NCBI GenBank assembly: GCA_017536445.1
Contig: JAFXHJ010000009.1
Span: 1-39,358 of the forward strand
Direction: 5' to 3'
Length of the DNA: 39,358 nucleotides
DNA from: Clostridia bacterium
GTDB lineage: Bacteria > Bacillota > Clostridia > TANB77 > CAG-465
Below are positions 4,170 to 39,358 of this stretch, piece after piece. The first letter of the stretch is position 1. Every line of letters starts with the position of its first letter. Made by a program: the position numbers and the translations under genes. A model generated the notes under the pieces. That model was given only the letters and a program-made list of their open reading frames with translations. It ran no database searches and was not told the origin of the DNA.

Positions 4170-5051
4170 TTACATAAATATTTCTATACCTTTTTCCACA
4201 CATTCAACATCAAACGGAAGCGTTGGTCCTAAATCTCCATCTGCATCTGTAGTAGAACATTTACCTTCTACTAAAGAAATCTTAAATTTCTTTTCTTTAA
4301 TGTATGCAACATTGTCGTTATTTACAAATTTACCATCCTCAAATTCGCTTAATATCTTTAATGTTTCAGCCATCTTTCCTGCTCTTAACATTACTATATC
4401 TAGCATTCCATCTTGTATACTTGAATTGTCTGAAAACAAGTCTATTCTTCCCACACTGCTTCCGTTAAATATCATAACAACAACTACTGTTTCTTCAACA
4501 ATACCATCTTCTGTTTCTATTTTTATCTTAAATGGTCTTTGTTCGAAAGGCTCTCTTGCTGCAGTTATAAAATACGAAGCATGACCGAGCATCTCCTTGA
4601 GTCGTTTATCTGTCTTATGAGATGTTCCTGAAAACATTCCAGCCGCTAAGATATTTACAAAGTACATACCATTTACTTTTCCAATATCTACGCCTTCTGT
4701 ATTTCCATCTATTATTCTTTGAACTGCTTTATCTACATCACCGTACACTCCAAGATGGAGAGCAAAATCGTTTGATGTTCCTGCAGGTATAATTCCTAAT
4801 GGAACATTTATATTATGTTGCTTCATAAAGTTAACAACTTTATTTATAGTACCATCTCCACCTGCTACAACTATAGCGTATGTATCATCTGGAGAGTTCT
4901 TAATAAAATCTTCACAAGAGTTCTCTTTTGAAGCTCTAAAAGCTGTTACTTCAAACCCATTTTCACTTAATCTGCCAATTACTTCGCTTATTATTTCGCT
5001 ACCCTTATTTTGTCCCGCAGATTTGTTATATATTAGTCTTATTTTTTTCAT
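4170..5051 (-). CDS. Diacylglycerol/lipid kinase family protein (YegS/DgkB/BmrU type)
   Basis: The 293-residue product has the DAGK catalytic fold: an N-terminal 'IYNKSAGQNKG' nucleotide-binding loop, the diagnostic GGDGTINKVV near residues 64-73, 'LGIIPAGTSNDFA' with the GTxNDFA motif, and the C-terminal beta-sandwich with DG(M/L)LD. Family members phosphorylate diacylglycerol or related lipids with ATP at the membrane and recycle lipid from wall-polymer synthesis. Which lipid this one uses cannot be told. The ATG follows TTGGAG, and the gene is the first of a minus-strand run into leuS. Confidence 0.9.
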   Translation of the reverse strand: MKKIRLIYNKSAGQNKGSEIISEVIGRLSENGFEVTAFRASKENSCEDFIKNSPDDTYAIVVAGGDGTINKVVNFMKQHNINVPLGIIPAGTSNDFALHLGVYGDVDKAVQRIIDGNTEGVDIGKVNGMYFVNILAAGMFSGTSHKTDKRLKEMLGHASYFITAAREPFEQRPFKIKIETEDGIVEETVVVVMIFNGSSVGRIDLFSDNSSIQDGMLDIVMLRAGKMAETLKILSEFEDGKFVNNDNVAYIKEKKFKISLVEGKCSTTDADGDLGPTLPFDVECVEKGIEIFM

Positions 5052-5575: not shown

Positions 5576-5661
5576 AACGTACCTCCAAAATATTAATTTT
5601 AGACTATTGTCACTTTTGTTTATTCTATCACCCAACTATTTTTTTAGCAAGTAGTTTATAA

Positions 5662-5699
5662 AAAGAAGAGAAAAGTATTATAATATCTTTCTCTTCTTT
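5662..5699 (-). terminator. Terminator after prepilin gene 1
   Basis: A 12-bp perfect stem (AAAGAAGAGAAA with TTTCTCTTCTTT) has an AT-rich loop that can extend the pairing. It is followed on the minus strand by TTTATAAAC. It is an almost exact copy of the hairpin at 6815-6852, showing that the terminator was duplicated with the gene. Confidence 0.75.
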
Positions 5700-5704
5700 G
5701 CATA

Positions 5705-5846
5705 TTATTTTCCTTGTTTTACTAGCATTATTGTACTTGCGTTTACATCTATCGCTGGCGCATCACTACTTACACATACGACAGGTCTAATATGCCTTTC
5801 AAGATAATACCATTGAGTACCTATACCAATCGTATCTCCGTACCTC
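5705..5846 (-). pseudogene. Out-of-frame C-terminal remnant of prepilin 1
   Basis: Read in the next frame, this stretch encodes RYGDTIGIGTQWYYLERHIR followed by PVVCVSSDAPAIDVNASTI and MLVKQGK, ending at a TAA (5705-5707). It aligns with the last residues of prepilin 2 (GIRPVVCISMDAPAISV...KQDK). One extra base in the GGAGAGG region near 5845 would explain the split. It could be a real mutation, a programmed frameshift or a sequence error. Confidence 0.85.
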
Positions 5847-6749
5847 TCCTGCTTTTACTTCCAAATTTAAATTTTGATATGCGTAGTTAGGAGATGCTAT
5901 CCAATAATTCTTTCCCTCTATAAAGTACATTGGTTCCATTGTTAAATTGACATTCCATAATCCATTTATTTGATATCCCCAATCATTTGCTTCCAACACT
6001 AACTCTGGAGTTTTTTGGGCTGCATTCCAACTTGTTGCAAATAATCTTATAGTAGGTCCACCTATAGAACCTTTTATATGTTCTCCATATTCTTCAACAT
6101 TTACATAAGTTTGATAATTCTTAATTAAAGTTGCAACACATTTATTGCTATACATATATGTTCCGTATTGATCATTATCGATTAATACATGGTCTGGCCA
6201 CTCACCTACTTGAAACAATTCATACAAAGCTAAATCATCTTCTGTCAAGCTATTAACGTTTATAGATGTAGATATGCTAGCATTTTCAAGCACATCTTTG
6301 GATATCAAATAAACATATCCCGTTGTTTCATCTTTGTAAAATACTTGCCATTCGCTTACTCCATTGGCTTCATATATTACATATTTCCCAAAATCCGCTG
6401 TAGATGTTACTAATTCTCCTAATTTTACTTCCTCTCCACGTGGTTTTACTGTTACACCTTTATCCGTTACTGCTATATTCCAATCATCTGTTGTTATTTT
6501 ATTTGATTCTAGTATTTCTTCAACTTTTGCTTTTAACTCTGCTCCTCTTAAGCCATCTGCATATGCATCTGCCCATGCTAACGCTGCTAAATGTTCTATT
6601 TGAGATTTGTTTGTTTTATCTACTGCTTCATCTGCTCTATTTATTATTCCATTATTACTTAATGTTATTACTACTGCTGATACTAATATTATCATAACTA
6701 TTATTGTTATTACTAATACTATTAAACTTATTCCTTGTTTATTTTTCAT
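5799..6749 (-). CDS. Prepilin-like surface protein 1, C-terminus frameshifted
   Basis: The start is the ATG at 6749, with GGAG 8 nt upstream (a longer in-frame ATG at 6776 sits before this site). The 316-residue product begins MKNKQG|ISLIVLVITIIV, a type IV prepilin-like leader: short positive leader, Gly before the predicted cleavage, then a hydrophobic helix; the usual Glu at +5 is Val. About the first 100 residues are nearly identical to prepilin 2, and the rest is roughly half identical. The distal part contains 'YWIASPNYAYQN', typical of lectin-like surface modules. The expected 'RPVVC' ending is lost: near 5841-5850 the frame shifts by one base and translation stops at 5799, while the missing end is encoded in another frame down to 5705. 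Confidence 0.8.
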   Translation of the reverse strand: MKNKQGISLIVLVITIIVMIILVSAVVITLSNNGIINRADEAVDKTNKSQIEHLAALAWADAYADGLRGAELKAKVEEILESNKITTDDWNIAVTDKGVTVKPRGEEVKLGELVTSTADFGKYVIYEANGVSEWQVFYKDETTGYVYLISKDVLENASISTSINVNSLTEDDLALYELFQVGEWPDHVLIDNDQYGTYMYSNKCVATLIKNYQTYVNVEEYGEHIKGSIGGPTIRLFATSWNAAQKTPELVLEANDWGYQINGLWNVNLTMEPMYFIEGKNYWIASPNYAYQNLNLEVKAGEVRRYDWYRYSMVLS

Positions 6750-6774
6750 TTGTTTTTCTCCTTTATATACATTC

Positions 6775-6803
6775 ATAATATACTATTCTATATTTTTTAG
6801 CAA
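6775..6803 (-). promoter_or_regulatory. Promoter of prepilin gene 1
   Basis: Minus strand TTGCTA (6798-6803), 17-nt spacer, TATTAT (6775-6780), about 26 nt before the ATG. It lies just after the terminator of prepilin gene 2, so the two copies appear to be separate transcription units. Confidence 0.6.
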
Positions 6804-6814
6804 TAGCTAATAAA

Positions 6815-6852
6815 AAAGAAGAGAAAAGTATTATAATATCTTTCTCTTCTTT
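6815..6852 (-). terminator. Terminator after prepilin gene 2
   Basis: 12-bp stem (AAAGAAGAGAAA with TTTCTCTTCTTT) starting 5 nt after the stop codon, followed on the minus strand by TTTTTTATTAG. The loop is identical to that of the hairpin at 5662-5699. Confidence 0.82.
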
Positions 6853-6857
6853 GTATA

Positions 6858-7883
6858 TTATTTATCTTGTTTTACTAGCATTATTGTATCCGAATCTACA
6901 CTTATAGCCGGCGCATCCATACTTATACAAACGACTGGTCTTATTCCTCTTTCAGCATAATACATAGCACTAGATATATAATAATCTATTGCTATCATTA
7001 TTGTGTTTTGATAACCATAGTTAGTAGATGCTATCCAATATTCTGATTCATCTAAAAAGAATATTGGATACTTTACCAGATTTATATGCCAACTACCATT
7101 CATAGTATAACCCCAATCTGTTGCTCCTAATGTTATTTGTGGTTCATACCCCATTGCATTCCAGCTTGCTGCAAACAATTCTATTGTCGGTCCGCCCAAC
7201 GCACCTTTTACATAAGAACCATAATCTTCTGTATTCATATATTTCTTATATTCTCTTATGAGTCTTGCAACGCCTTGACATCCTGTCATACTCCAATTTC
7301 TTTCTACATCAAGATCTATTAATGTATGACTTACACCATCCACAACTTGAAACAAATCAAACATATCTAACTCTTCTTGTGTTAAATCACTAACCTTAAA
7401 TTTTGTCGATAATGTAGTTCTTTCGGGAACACCTTTTGCTATTAAATAGATATTTCCTTTGGCTTCATCTTCATAAAATAGTTGCCAATCGCTTACTCCA
7501 TTTGCCTCGTACATTACTGTTTTTCCTATATCTTTATTTGAAACTAATAAACCAACTTTAACTTCTTCACCTTTTGGAATAAGTGTTACACCTTTATCCG
7601 TTACTGCTATATTCCAATCATCTGTTGTTATTTTATTTGCTTCTAGTATTTCTTCAACTTTTGCTTTTAACTCTGCGCCTCTTAGTCCATCTGCATACGC
7701 ATCCGCCCATGCTAATGCTGCTAAATGCTCTATTTGAGATTTGCTTGTTTTATCTACTGCTTCATCTGCTCTATTTATTATACCATTATTGCTTAATGTT
7801 ATTACTACAGCTGATGCTAATATTATCATAACTATTATTGTTATTACTAATACTATTAAACTTATACCTTGCTTTCTTTTCAT
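6858..7883 (-). CDS. Prepilin-like surface protein 2
   Basis: The 341-residue product starts at the ATG at 7883, where GGAGG stands 6 nt upstream; the in-frame ATG at 7895 overlaps that site and is unlikely to be used. It has a positive leader MKRKQG, a predicted prepilin-peptidase cut before ISLIVLV, a membrane/assembly helix to about residue 30, a helical segment (INRADEAVDKT...), then a large beta-rich exported region. The C-terminal 'EYWIASTNYGYQN...GIRPVVC' resembles C-type-lectin-like modules (DUF6273/FISUMP-like) of surface proteins. Glu+5, needed by major pilins, is absent, so it may be a minor pilin or a membrane-anchored pseudopilin. It is a tandem paralog of prepilin 1 and related to the gene at 38349. 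No pilus ATPase, platform or peptidase gene is present in the window. Confidence 0.85.
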   Translation of the reverse strand: MKRKQGISLIVLVITIIVMIILASAVVITLSNNGIINRADEAVDKTSKSQIEHLAALAWADAYADGLRGAELKAKVEEILEANKITTDDWNIAVTDKGVTLIPKGEEVKVGLLVSNKDIGKTVMYEANGVSDWQLFYEDEAKGNIYLIAKGVPERTTLSTKFKVSDLTQEELDMFDLFQVVDGVSHTLIDLDVERNWSMTGCQGVARLIREYKKYMNTEDYGSYVKGALGGPTIELFAASWNAMGYEPQITLGATDWGYTMNGSWHINLVKYPIFFLDESEYWIASTNYGYQNTIMIAIDYYISSAMYYAERGIRPVVCISMDAPAISVDSDTIMLVKQDK

Positions 7884-7895
7884 TTGTTCCTCCAT

Positions 7896-38348: not shown

Positions 38349-39358
38349 TTATTTTGTTAAACTAAAATCGTAATCCCCTGTTCCCACTGTGGCAGGGATA
38401 CTAGATTTTAGACAAACTACGGGACGCACGCCGATAATAGAGTTGCAGGTGCTATCGCCCACAAGGTCATATCCCGCACTCATAACATCGTCATAGTGGT
38501 CATAAGACGGAGACGCCAACCAGTACCAGTAATCTGACGATACATATAATCCATCACCTGTTACTTCTACATATGCATCGTTATTTATCCTGTATCCATA
38601 TGTGTCTGTTGTTAGTGCCATTGTTGGCGTATAGCCTTTTGCATTCCATCCTGCTGCTAATAACTCTAATGTTGGTCCTCCTATTGCTCCTACTACATTT
38701 GTTCCATATGTTGTTATATTTGCAAAATTTGCATAATCTTTTATTAATTGCGCTACTGCTTGGCAGTTATACATTGTGAAATTATTTCCAGCTGTTTCAT
38801 CTGTAAATGTATCTACCAATGTACATTTATTTGCTGTTCCTACTCTAAACTTTTCATATAGTGCTAGCTCGTTTGATGTTAAGCTTGCCACCGTTGTTCC
38901 TTTATCTAATGAAACTTTTTCAACACGACTTTCAGATATTAAATATACATAGTCGTTATTATGATAATATATTTGCCAATCATCATATGTAGTTCCATTT
39001 ACTGTTACAGTATAGTCTACTCTATCTCCATAATTATCTGCTGTTATTAATGAGCCTAGTCCAGTTCCTGATTGTGTGTTGCCTCCACCACCATTATTTT
39101 TATTTTCTACTGTAACTCCTGTATCTGTTATTGTTATATCCCATTTGTCTGTTGTTACTCCTTGTTTTCCTAATTCTTCTGTTACTTTATCTATTAGGTC
39201 TTGTCCTCTTAGCTTGTCCATATAGGCATCTGCCCACACCAATGCAGCTAAGTCTTGCACTTGTGATTCATTTGTTAAATCTACTGCTTCATTTGCTCTG
39301 TTTATTACACCAGTATTATTTAGTGTTATTACTACGCTTGCTGCTAAGATTATCATTA
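38349..39358 (-). CDS. Prepilin-like surface protein 3 (partial, N-terminus cut by window end)
   Basis: The visible 335 residues begin inside the hydrophobic prepilin helix ('MIILAASVVITLNNTG'); the leader lies beyond the window. The helix is followed by 'VINRANEAVDLTNESQVQDLAALVWADAYMDKLRG', as in prepilins 1 and 2, then a Gly/Asn-rich linker (NNGGGGNTQSG), and a beta-rich region ending 'DYWYWLASPSYDHYDD...GVRPVVCLKSS'. The WLAS...RPVVC ending is the same lectin-like module. About the last 200 nt are richer in G/C than the first part, so the gene may be mosaic. It sits about 30 kb from the tandem pair. Confidence 0.85.
   Translation of the reverse strand, partial: MIILAASVVITLNNTGVINRANEAVDLTNESQVQDLAALVWADAYMDKLRGQDLIDKVTEELGKQGVTTDKWDITITDTGVTVENKNNGGGGNTQSGTGLGSLITADNYGDRVDYTVTVNGTTYDDWQIYYHNNDYVYLISESRVEKVSLDKGTTVASLTSNELALYEKFRVGTANKCTLVDTFTDETAGNNFTMYNCQAVAQLIKDYANFANITTYGTNVVGAIGGPTLELLAAGWNAKGYTPTMALTTDTYGYRINNDAYVEVTGDGLYVSSDYWYWLASPSYDHYDDVMSAGYDLVGDSTCNSIIGVRPVVCLKSSIPATVGTGDYDFSLTK

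Follow-up and report, generated by a model that had tools for sequence, protein, structure and literature searches.

Prepilin-like genes of a gut Clostridia bacterium carry loops with a codon footprint resembling that of diversity-generating retroelements

The window analysed here is a 39,358-nucleotide stretch (positions 1 to 39,358, forward strand, of contig JAFXHJ010000009.1) from a Clostridia bacterium of the CAG-465 lineage, a gut bacterium whose 1.307 Mb genome is assembled in 21 contigs (GCA_017536445.1). It holds a tandem pair of paralogous genes, A and B, that encode a prepilin-like N-terminal module (N-module) followed by a DUF6273-like C-terminal domain, and a third member of the same family at its far end. 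From the sequence evidence set out below, we consider it likely that the family includes pilin-like adhesins diversified by a diversity-generating retroelement (DGR), that this DGR has been lost from the genome or lies in unassembled sequence, and that the near-constant ends of the A/B pair arose by local recombination. Our confidence was lowered very slightly because a set of 40 further retroelement loci in relatives is biased towards reverse transcriptases (RTs) with prepilin targets.

A DGR-like signal is present in the third gene. The original prediction had placed a related gene at 38349, and this is a real family member with 41% identity to gene B. Its features are as follows.

38349..39356, minus strand: third member of the family, truncated at its 5′ end by the contig boundary
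38430..38504, minus strand: variable region of the third gene, 25 codons, with a DGR-like codon-position footprint and constant flanks at 38417-38429 and 38505-38518

In genes of the DUF6273 type the loop sits near the C-terminus, between constant WLASPS and VRPVVCLKSS motifs. A loop region of 25-28 codons is closely shared by seven genes, the third window gene included; six follow the exact pattern, and one (C4start) is slightly different. For three of them (C11:57953, C4:98765 and the third window gene), 22-24 codons of the 28-codon loop window end in a pyrimidine (NNY codons), versus 34-39% in the rest, and the GC content of the loop window is 50-55% versus 34-35% elsewhere in the gene. Other DUF6273-type members show a milder NNY and GC signal or lack the GC shift.

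Five of the loops have the same length, 25 codons, and the footprint was measured on these. Compared pair by pair, they differ at the first, second and third codon position in 128, 107 and 24 of 250 codon pairs, and the tail that follows the loop in the same five genes differs in 4, 12 and 41 of 210. Where upstream sequence is also available (four genes), the loop gives 79, 68 and 17 of 150 versus 199, 150 and 281 of 1419 upstream (Fisher p 1e-17, a value that is overstated since pairwise counts are not independent). In the five loops the third base is kept in 17 of the 20 codon columns that vary at positions 1 or 2, in 16 cases as a pyrimidine; upstream, in the four genes, it is kept in 39 of 78 varying columns, 8 as a pyrimidine. 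Positive selection would free positions 1 and 2 without protecting the third base, and for this reason rewriting by a DGR is favoured; a conserved third base next to free first and second positions is what would be expected from rewriting off one template with AAC/AAT codons. Promiscuity of DGR RTs at template adenines is a known rule, as stated in passages of PMC8144416. The codon-position footprint of the loops in this genome is strong and would fit adenine-directed change. The earlier hint at a DGR fits the third gene together with six paralogues dispersed in the genome, whose loops are strongly DGR-like, but not the middle sections of A and B, which have no clear footprint.

DGRs with target genes of the prepilin type exist in relatives of this genome. 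Among the first 15 RT stretches of relatives, four (L106, L107, L108 and L114) combine an RT, recognised by RVT_1, with a template repeat and a variable repeat (TR and VR), and all their targets are prepilin-type. In L106, the TR (4574-4699) and VR (2060-2185) differ by 15 adenine and 6 other mismatches; the corresponding counts are 13 and 3 in both L107 and L108, and 31 and 6 in L114, on the understanding that the TR/VR scan itself selects A-rich mismatches. The L114 target has a loop of the same kind as those described above (YWLSSS...GLRPVV), and in L107 the RT and TR are 1160 nt apart and on opposite strands. The test for the accessory protein Avd covered L106 only, where a bAvd match exceeded its cut-off (E 2.6e-18) and an NCBIfam Avd match fell below its own (E 2.9e-20; 72.5 bits, cut-off 80). 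Repeats in L112, L115, L117 and L119 were set aside by eye as tandem or AT-rich repeats, the ten in L117 being removed by the GC filter.

RTs matching a DGR-RT profile at E ≤ 1e-20 occur in 213 of 385 genomes of the order, although some of the weaker matches may belong to RTs of another type. Forty further loci were taken from these relatives, using the first-listed stop-free RT per genome, strongest first and not picked by target. A TR/VR pair was found beside the RT in 31 and none in 9. Prepilin-type targets account for 17 of the 31, 5 are cut before a module could show, and 9 have other targets. Fifteen of the 17 were recognised by motif and L144 by profile; L142 was recognised weakly by profile and is cut by the contig end. 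In 14 of the 17, the module and the loop are read in a single open frame; in L140, L150 and L153 the module lies in another frame. When one candidate pair per locus is counted without curation, 732 of 1558 template adenines and 179 of 2836 other bases are mismatched, which is a description and not a test, as the scan selects pairs by their A-mismatches. Five of the 9 loci with other targets (L160, L162, L163, L164 and L165) show a second type of DGR target: their shared N-terminus resembles MKRYEKFVLEAEKGITFEVSEGT, and a prepilin-like module was not found in them.

We propose the following mechanism. The constant module, a class-III-like signal with a hydrophobic helix, would let the pilus machinery cleave and assemble the proteins, so that one shared module fused to many different C-terminal domains would be displayed on a pilus at the cell surface, where the loop may bind ligands. 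Adenines in the AAC/AAT codons of a template would be changed to other bases, with the third pyrimidine unchanged, and the resulting cDNA would replace the loop in several dispersed DUF6273-type genes, acting in trans in this species. The RT and template would since have been lost from this genome, or would be located in sequence missing from the assembly. The A/B pair would represent a neighbouring branch that has not recently been diversified by a DGR, and the ends of its two genes would have been homogenised by recombination between the tandem copies.

Contig C4 of the same genome carries a type IV pilus locus with homologues of PilB, PilT and PilC and a protein with an A24 N-terminal domain, and a short gene with the family N-module lies inside it. 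The pilus assembly genes of the genome match T2SSE (E 2.8e-94 and 1.1e-29), T2SSF (E 3.9e-27) and A24_N_bact (E 7.8e-28). The prepilin-peptidase-like protein of C4 (L034, 6814-7641; G000:C4) continues into a further hydrophobic segment. Alignment of 16 N-termini of the family reveals that G6, S8, L9 and I10 are invariant, with basic residues before the glycine, a class III form as judged by eye.

The family is large. Gene B matches 60 pieces in the genome, and a profile built on the 55 N-terminal residues gives 46 matches at E ≤ 0.01; in the relatives set, which comprises 29 genomes including this one, 23 have N-module matches, with 36 in a same-genus genome. Scanning 40 of the 43 members for C-terminal domains identified Big_2 (7), DUF6273 (4) and fn3 (3), as well as single cases of beta helix, FGE-sulfatase and Hint-type domains, while motif and alignment assign 14 members to the DUF6273 type. 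The intein/pretoxin Hint match is in one prepilin-like protein, probably C21:16503 (L037, 867-2504), the member being guessed from its C-terminus. At 15 of the 42 contig ends a family gene is found within 450 nt, which points to assembly breaks at this repeat family; the contigs concerned are C2, C3, C4, C6, C7, C8, C9, C10, C11, C14, C16, C18 and C20.

Structure models were obtained for gene B (pLDDT 69) and the third gene (pLDDT 58.9). VIA-align related the gene B model to part of the Thomasclavelia IgA peptidase 9qa6 (Z 10.3, rmsd 3.3, 172 aligned), a score to be read with the caveat that best Z values of 7-8 are common without a clear Foldseek match, and weakly to NKp80, a C-type-lectin-like receptor (Z 4.1, rmsd 3.4, 98 aligned). 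No DGR target protein is named in the Foldseek and VIA-align lists for gene B.

A number of results weigh against a DGR acting on pilin-like adhesins. The original prediction proposed a search for an RT with a template repeat in the genome, and that search came back empty. RVT_1 had no matches in the own genome, in the same-genus genome or in the record of a sheep-rectum metagenome-assembled genome (MAG) near-identical to the same-genus one (identical over 2349 nt), and a 4-sequence DGR-RT profile at E ≤ 1e-20 had none in the own or same-genus genome. No template was found in the 21 contigs, close loop matches all being coding copies. In public collections, which may omit the window's own records, the template search returned two loci from genome_contigs, both coding copies, and none from viral_contigs. 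The set of 40 loci was ranked by likeness to the four RTs with prepilin targets, so its rate is biased, and it includes near-identical elements (for example L132, L133, L134 and L135), so that 17 of 31 is not an unbiased proportion; the targets of 9 of the 31 DGRs are without a prepilin-like module. As for the proteins themselves, classical type IV pilins have E at position +5 of the mature protein; here V11, invariant in the 16 aligned N-termini, places V at +5, as it also does in the short gene of the C4 locus. No pilin or N-methylation model of Pfam or NCBIfam exceeded its cut-off for the window proteins, the peptidase of the C4 locus matches the A24 N-terminal domain and no other A24 model, and the best Foldseek E for the gene B model is 1.1. 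The name prepilin-like was chosen because the N-termini have the class III form but carry V at +5 and match no curated pilin model; the proteins are, on their sequences, prepilin-like and not proven pilins.

Two further searches had little bearing on the question. A composition scan for template-like stretches returned 48 windows at four own-genome loci, and recovered just 8 of 25 known templates, hence is uninformative. RGIG6332 (L122) was the sole second assembly found; it shares 2349 identical nt with the same-genus genome and thus says nothing about loop turnover. In a rabbit Clostridia MAG (L121), a prepilin-like gene recognised by eye (1221-2333) has loop flanks as in the third window gene; four short template patterns were absent from the loci around two RVT_1 matches elsewhere in that genome.

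The missing RT and template could also mean that the lineage has lost its DGR, leaving the variable regions as relics in targets that are now static. This special case of the preferred explanation is a real possibility, although we incline somewhat against it. Neither the own nor the same-genus genome yielded an RT or template, and PMC4891356 describes, in the portion bearing on this point, Treponema denticola isolates that retain targets without RT and TR, which its authors regard as likely leftovers. On the other hand, the footprint looks fresh, given the third-base counts for loop and upstream sequence in the four genes (17 of 150 and 281 of 1419), and the GC content of the loops has not drifted to the gene average. 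In addition, a short DGR contig could be missing here, because the assembly breaks at family genes and the RT contigs of several relatives are just 3.7-6.4 kb long.

The tandem pair presents a different pattern. Its features are listed below.

5799..6749, minus strand: gene A, prepilin-like N-module and DUF6273-like C-terminal domain, with a frame change near the 3′ end
5708..5824, minus strand: out-of-frame remainder of gene A, homologous to the final 39 codons of B (67% amino acid identity, as a separate match)
6858..7883, minus strand: gene B, intact paralogue of gene A; 345 amino acids from an upstream ATG at 7895
6444..6749, minus strand: N-module of gene A, with a class-III-like signal followed by a hydrophobic helix; its 102 codons have 93% nucleotide identity to gene B
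7578..7883, minus strand: N-module of gene B, 102 codons, from codon and DNA alignment with gene A
6812..6852, minus strand: hairpin 3′ of gene B, almost identical to that of gene A
5660..5699, minus strand: hairpin 3′ of gene A, almost identical to that of gene B

In the DNA alignment of A and B, the three first 100-column blocks from the start codon contain 93, 94 and 96 identities; the middle drops abruptly to 53-68 per 100 columns, and the block holding the last codons and the hairpin returns to 86. By codon alignment, the 102 codons of the N-module are 94% identical in protein and 93% in DNA, with a proportion of synonymous differences (pS) of 0.20, while the 195 aligned codons of the middle are 50% and 64% identical with pS 0.55. 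The last 27 codons and stop have 67 of 84 nucleotides in common (80%). The predicted variable middle between constant ends was thus recovered by alignment, together with the near-identical terminators insofar as these are the hairpins (a simple terminator scan gave neither a score); near-identity of the coding ends applies to the first 102 codons but not to the last 27. Gene A shifts frame shortly before its 3′ end, its homologous last codons (5824..5708) being in another frame, so that either the gene is broken or the assembly is wrong at this point. Another family member (L011, G000:C17:4286-5375) is apparently frame-broken in the same manner, with its homologous remainder in another frame.

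Synonymous divergence was compared for 78 of the 91 possible pairs of the 14 DUF6273-type paralogues in the genome, the rest having too few aligned codons. The A/B pair has the largest jump of all, from pS 0.19 in the N-module to 0.57 in the middle (Fisher p 3.4e-7, uncorrected for the 78 tests; next pair p 0.00075). Purifying selection on protein should not reduce synonymous divergence, and the constant ends were therefore probably made by local recombination between the tandem copies, not by protein constraint alone. It is unlikely, in our view, that A and B are ordinary tandem paralogues in which protein-level selection holds the assembly part constant while the binding part diverges, with no special mechanism. 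The N-module is indeed somewhat more conserved at synonymous sites in general (median pS 0.48 versus 0.59 over the 78 pairs), but the threefold reduction in A/B stands out from this background, and the 20-nt hairpin core occurs downstream of A and B only, 2 of the 38 family genes with downstream sequence (43 gene starts, 5 of which run off a contig end). Nor can such paralogues account for the loops in which the third base is kept while the first two vary freely. An equally low N-module pS of 0.18 separates C11:57953 and the third window gene, a pair outside the eight largest jumps; recent exchange or common descent of N-modules, as judged from these values, is accordingly not confined to A/B.

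The middles of A and B are mutual best matches at 50%, the next-best paralogues in this genome reaching 34-44%. The best matches in the same-genus genome (34-41%) are no closer than the own-genome paralogues. The simplest course consistent with these data would be an old tandem duplication whose ends were homogenised later. The same-genus genome gave no matches to a 257-aa C-terminal piece of DnaE, so that the syntenic place is absent from its assembly. That a DGR produced the A/B pattern itself was rejected: the divergence extends over ~200 codons, many of the changes are synonymous, and the gene B loop region (15 of 28 NNY codons versus 98 of 276 in the rest; 26% GC) has a mild NNY excess without a GC shift.

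The original prediction had offered gene conversion or cassette-like variation for this pair, and recombination is the part that stood, on the synonymous jump, the pair-specific hairpin and the 50% identity of the middles. Antigenic variation from silent cassettes, in the manner of Neisseria pilE/pilS, is very improbable and found no support, for although recombination is likely in A/B and the many family copies, with their breaks at 15 of 42 contig ends, suggest repeats able to recombine, the internal partial matches inspected in the own genome (many copies being cut by contig ends) all sit in genes with their own N-terminal hydrophobic module, and copying between paralogues alone gives no codon-position-specific footprint.

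If DGR diversification of these adhesins is correct, uncultured gut Clostridia subject their type IV pilus-like surface proteins to targeted hypermutation. This would be a route by which gut bacteria with reduced genomes could vary their attachment to host, food or other microbes. The repeats of the family may also explain why the genome is fragmented at these genes. RTs resembling those of the four DGRs are widespread in the order, with profile matches in 213 of 385 genomes, and 17 of the 31 TR/VR pairs have prepilin-type targets. A wider proposal, to which we give slightly less than an even chance, is that across this order of small-genome gut Clostridia DGRs act on a large type IV pilin-like repertoire, in which one common module docks dozens of exchangeable C-terminal domains on the pilus machinery, one retroelement serves several loops in trans and local recombination keeps the module uniform; the outcome would be a hypermutable, pilus-borne adhesin library.

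Among known systems, Neisseria pilE/pilS is a type IV pilin system in which the N-terminal helix is constant and the C-terminal part varies through gene conversion from silent cassettes. The family described here shares the constant N-terminal helix and variable C-terminal part, but no silent cassettes were seen among the matches inspected, and the loop changes are specific to codon position. The DGR of Treponema denticola has up to seven dispersed targets whose variable repeats derive from one template (PMC4891356, relevant sections). Like the genome studied here, it combines dispersed targets with the occurrence, in some isolates, of targets without RT and TR, and those sections thus provide a precedent both for dispersed targets and for targets that outlive their DGR. 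They assign the Treponema targets to FGE-sulfatase/C-type-lectin type domains and mention no prepilin-type N-module, in contrast to the DUF6273-like domain and the type IV pilus locus of the present genome. Bacteroides DGRs, according to passages of PMC12632263 citing Macadangdang et al., diversify the tip pilins of type V pili. This is a precedent for DGRs on gut pili and resembles the present case in involving a gut bacterium and a pilus component; the DGR there acts on the tip protein, and type V pilins start as lipoproteins (same passages), unlike the class-III-like N-termini found here in Clostridia. DGR targets with putative pilin structures are mentioned in PMC6642488, citing another paper, where they are tied to DUF1566 domains, and the passages concerned describe no type IV prepilin family. 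The portions of the open-licence PMC literature returned for DGRs with prepilin targets in Clostridia held no such case. DGRs, and DGRs directed at pili, are already known; a prepilin-like repertoire with DGR-like loops, in a genome whose assembly yielded no DGR, is a variant of these systems.

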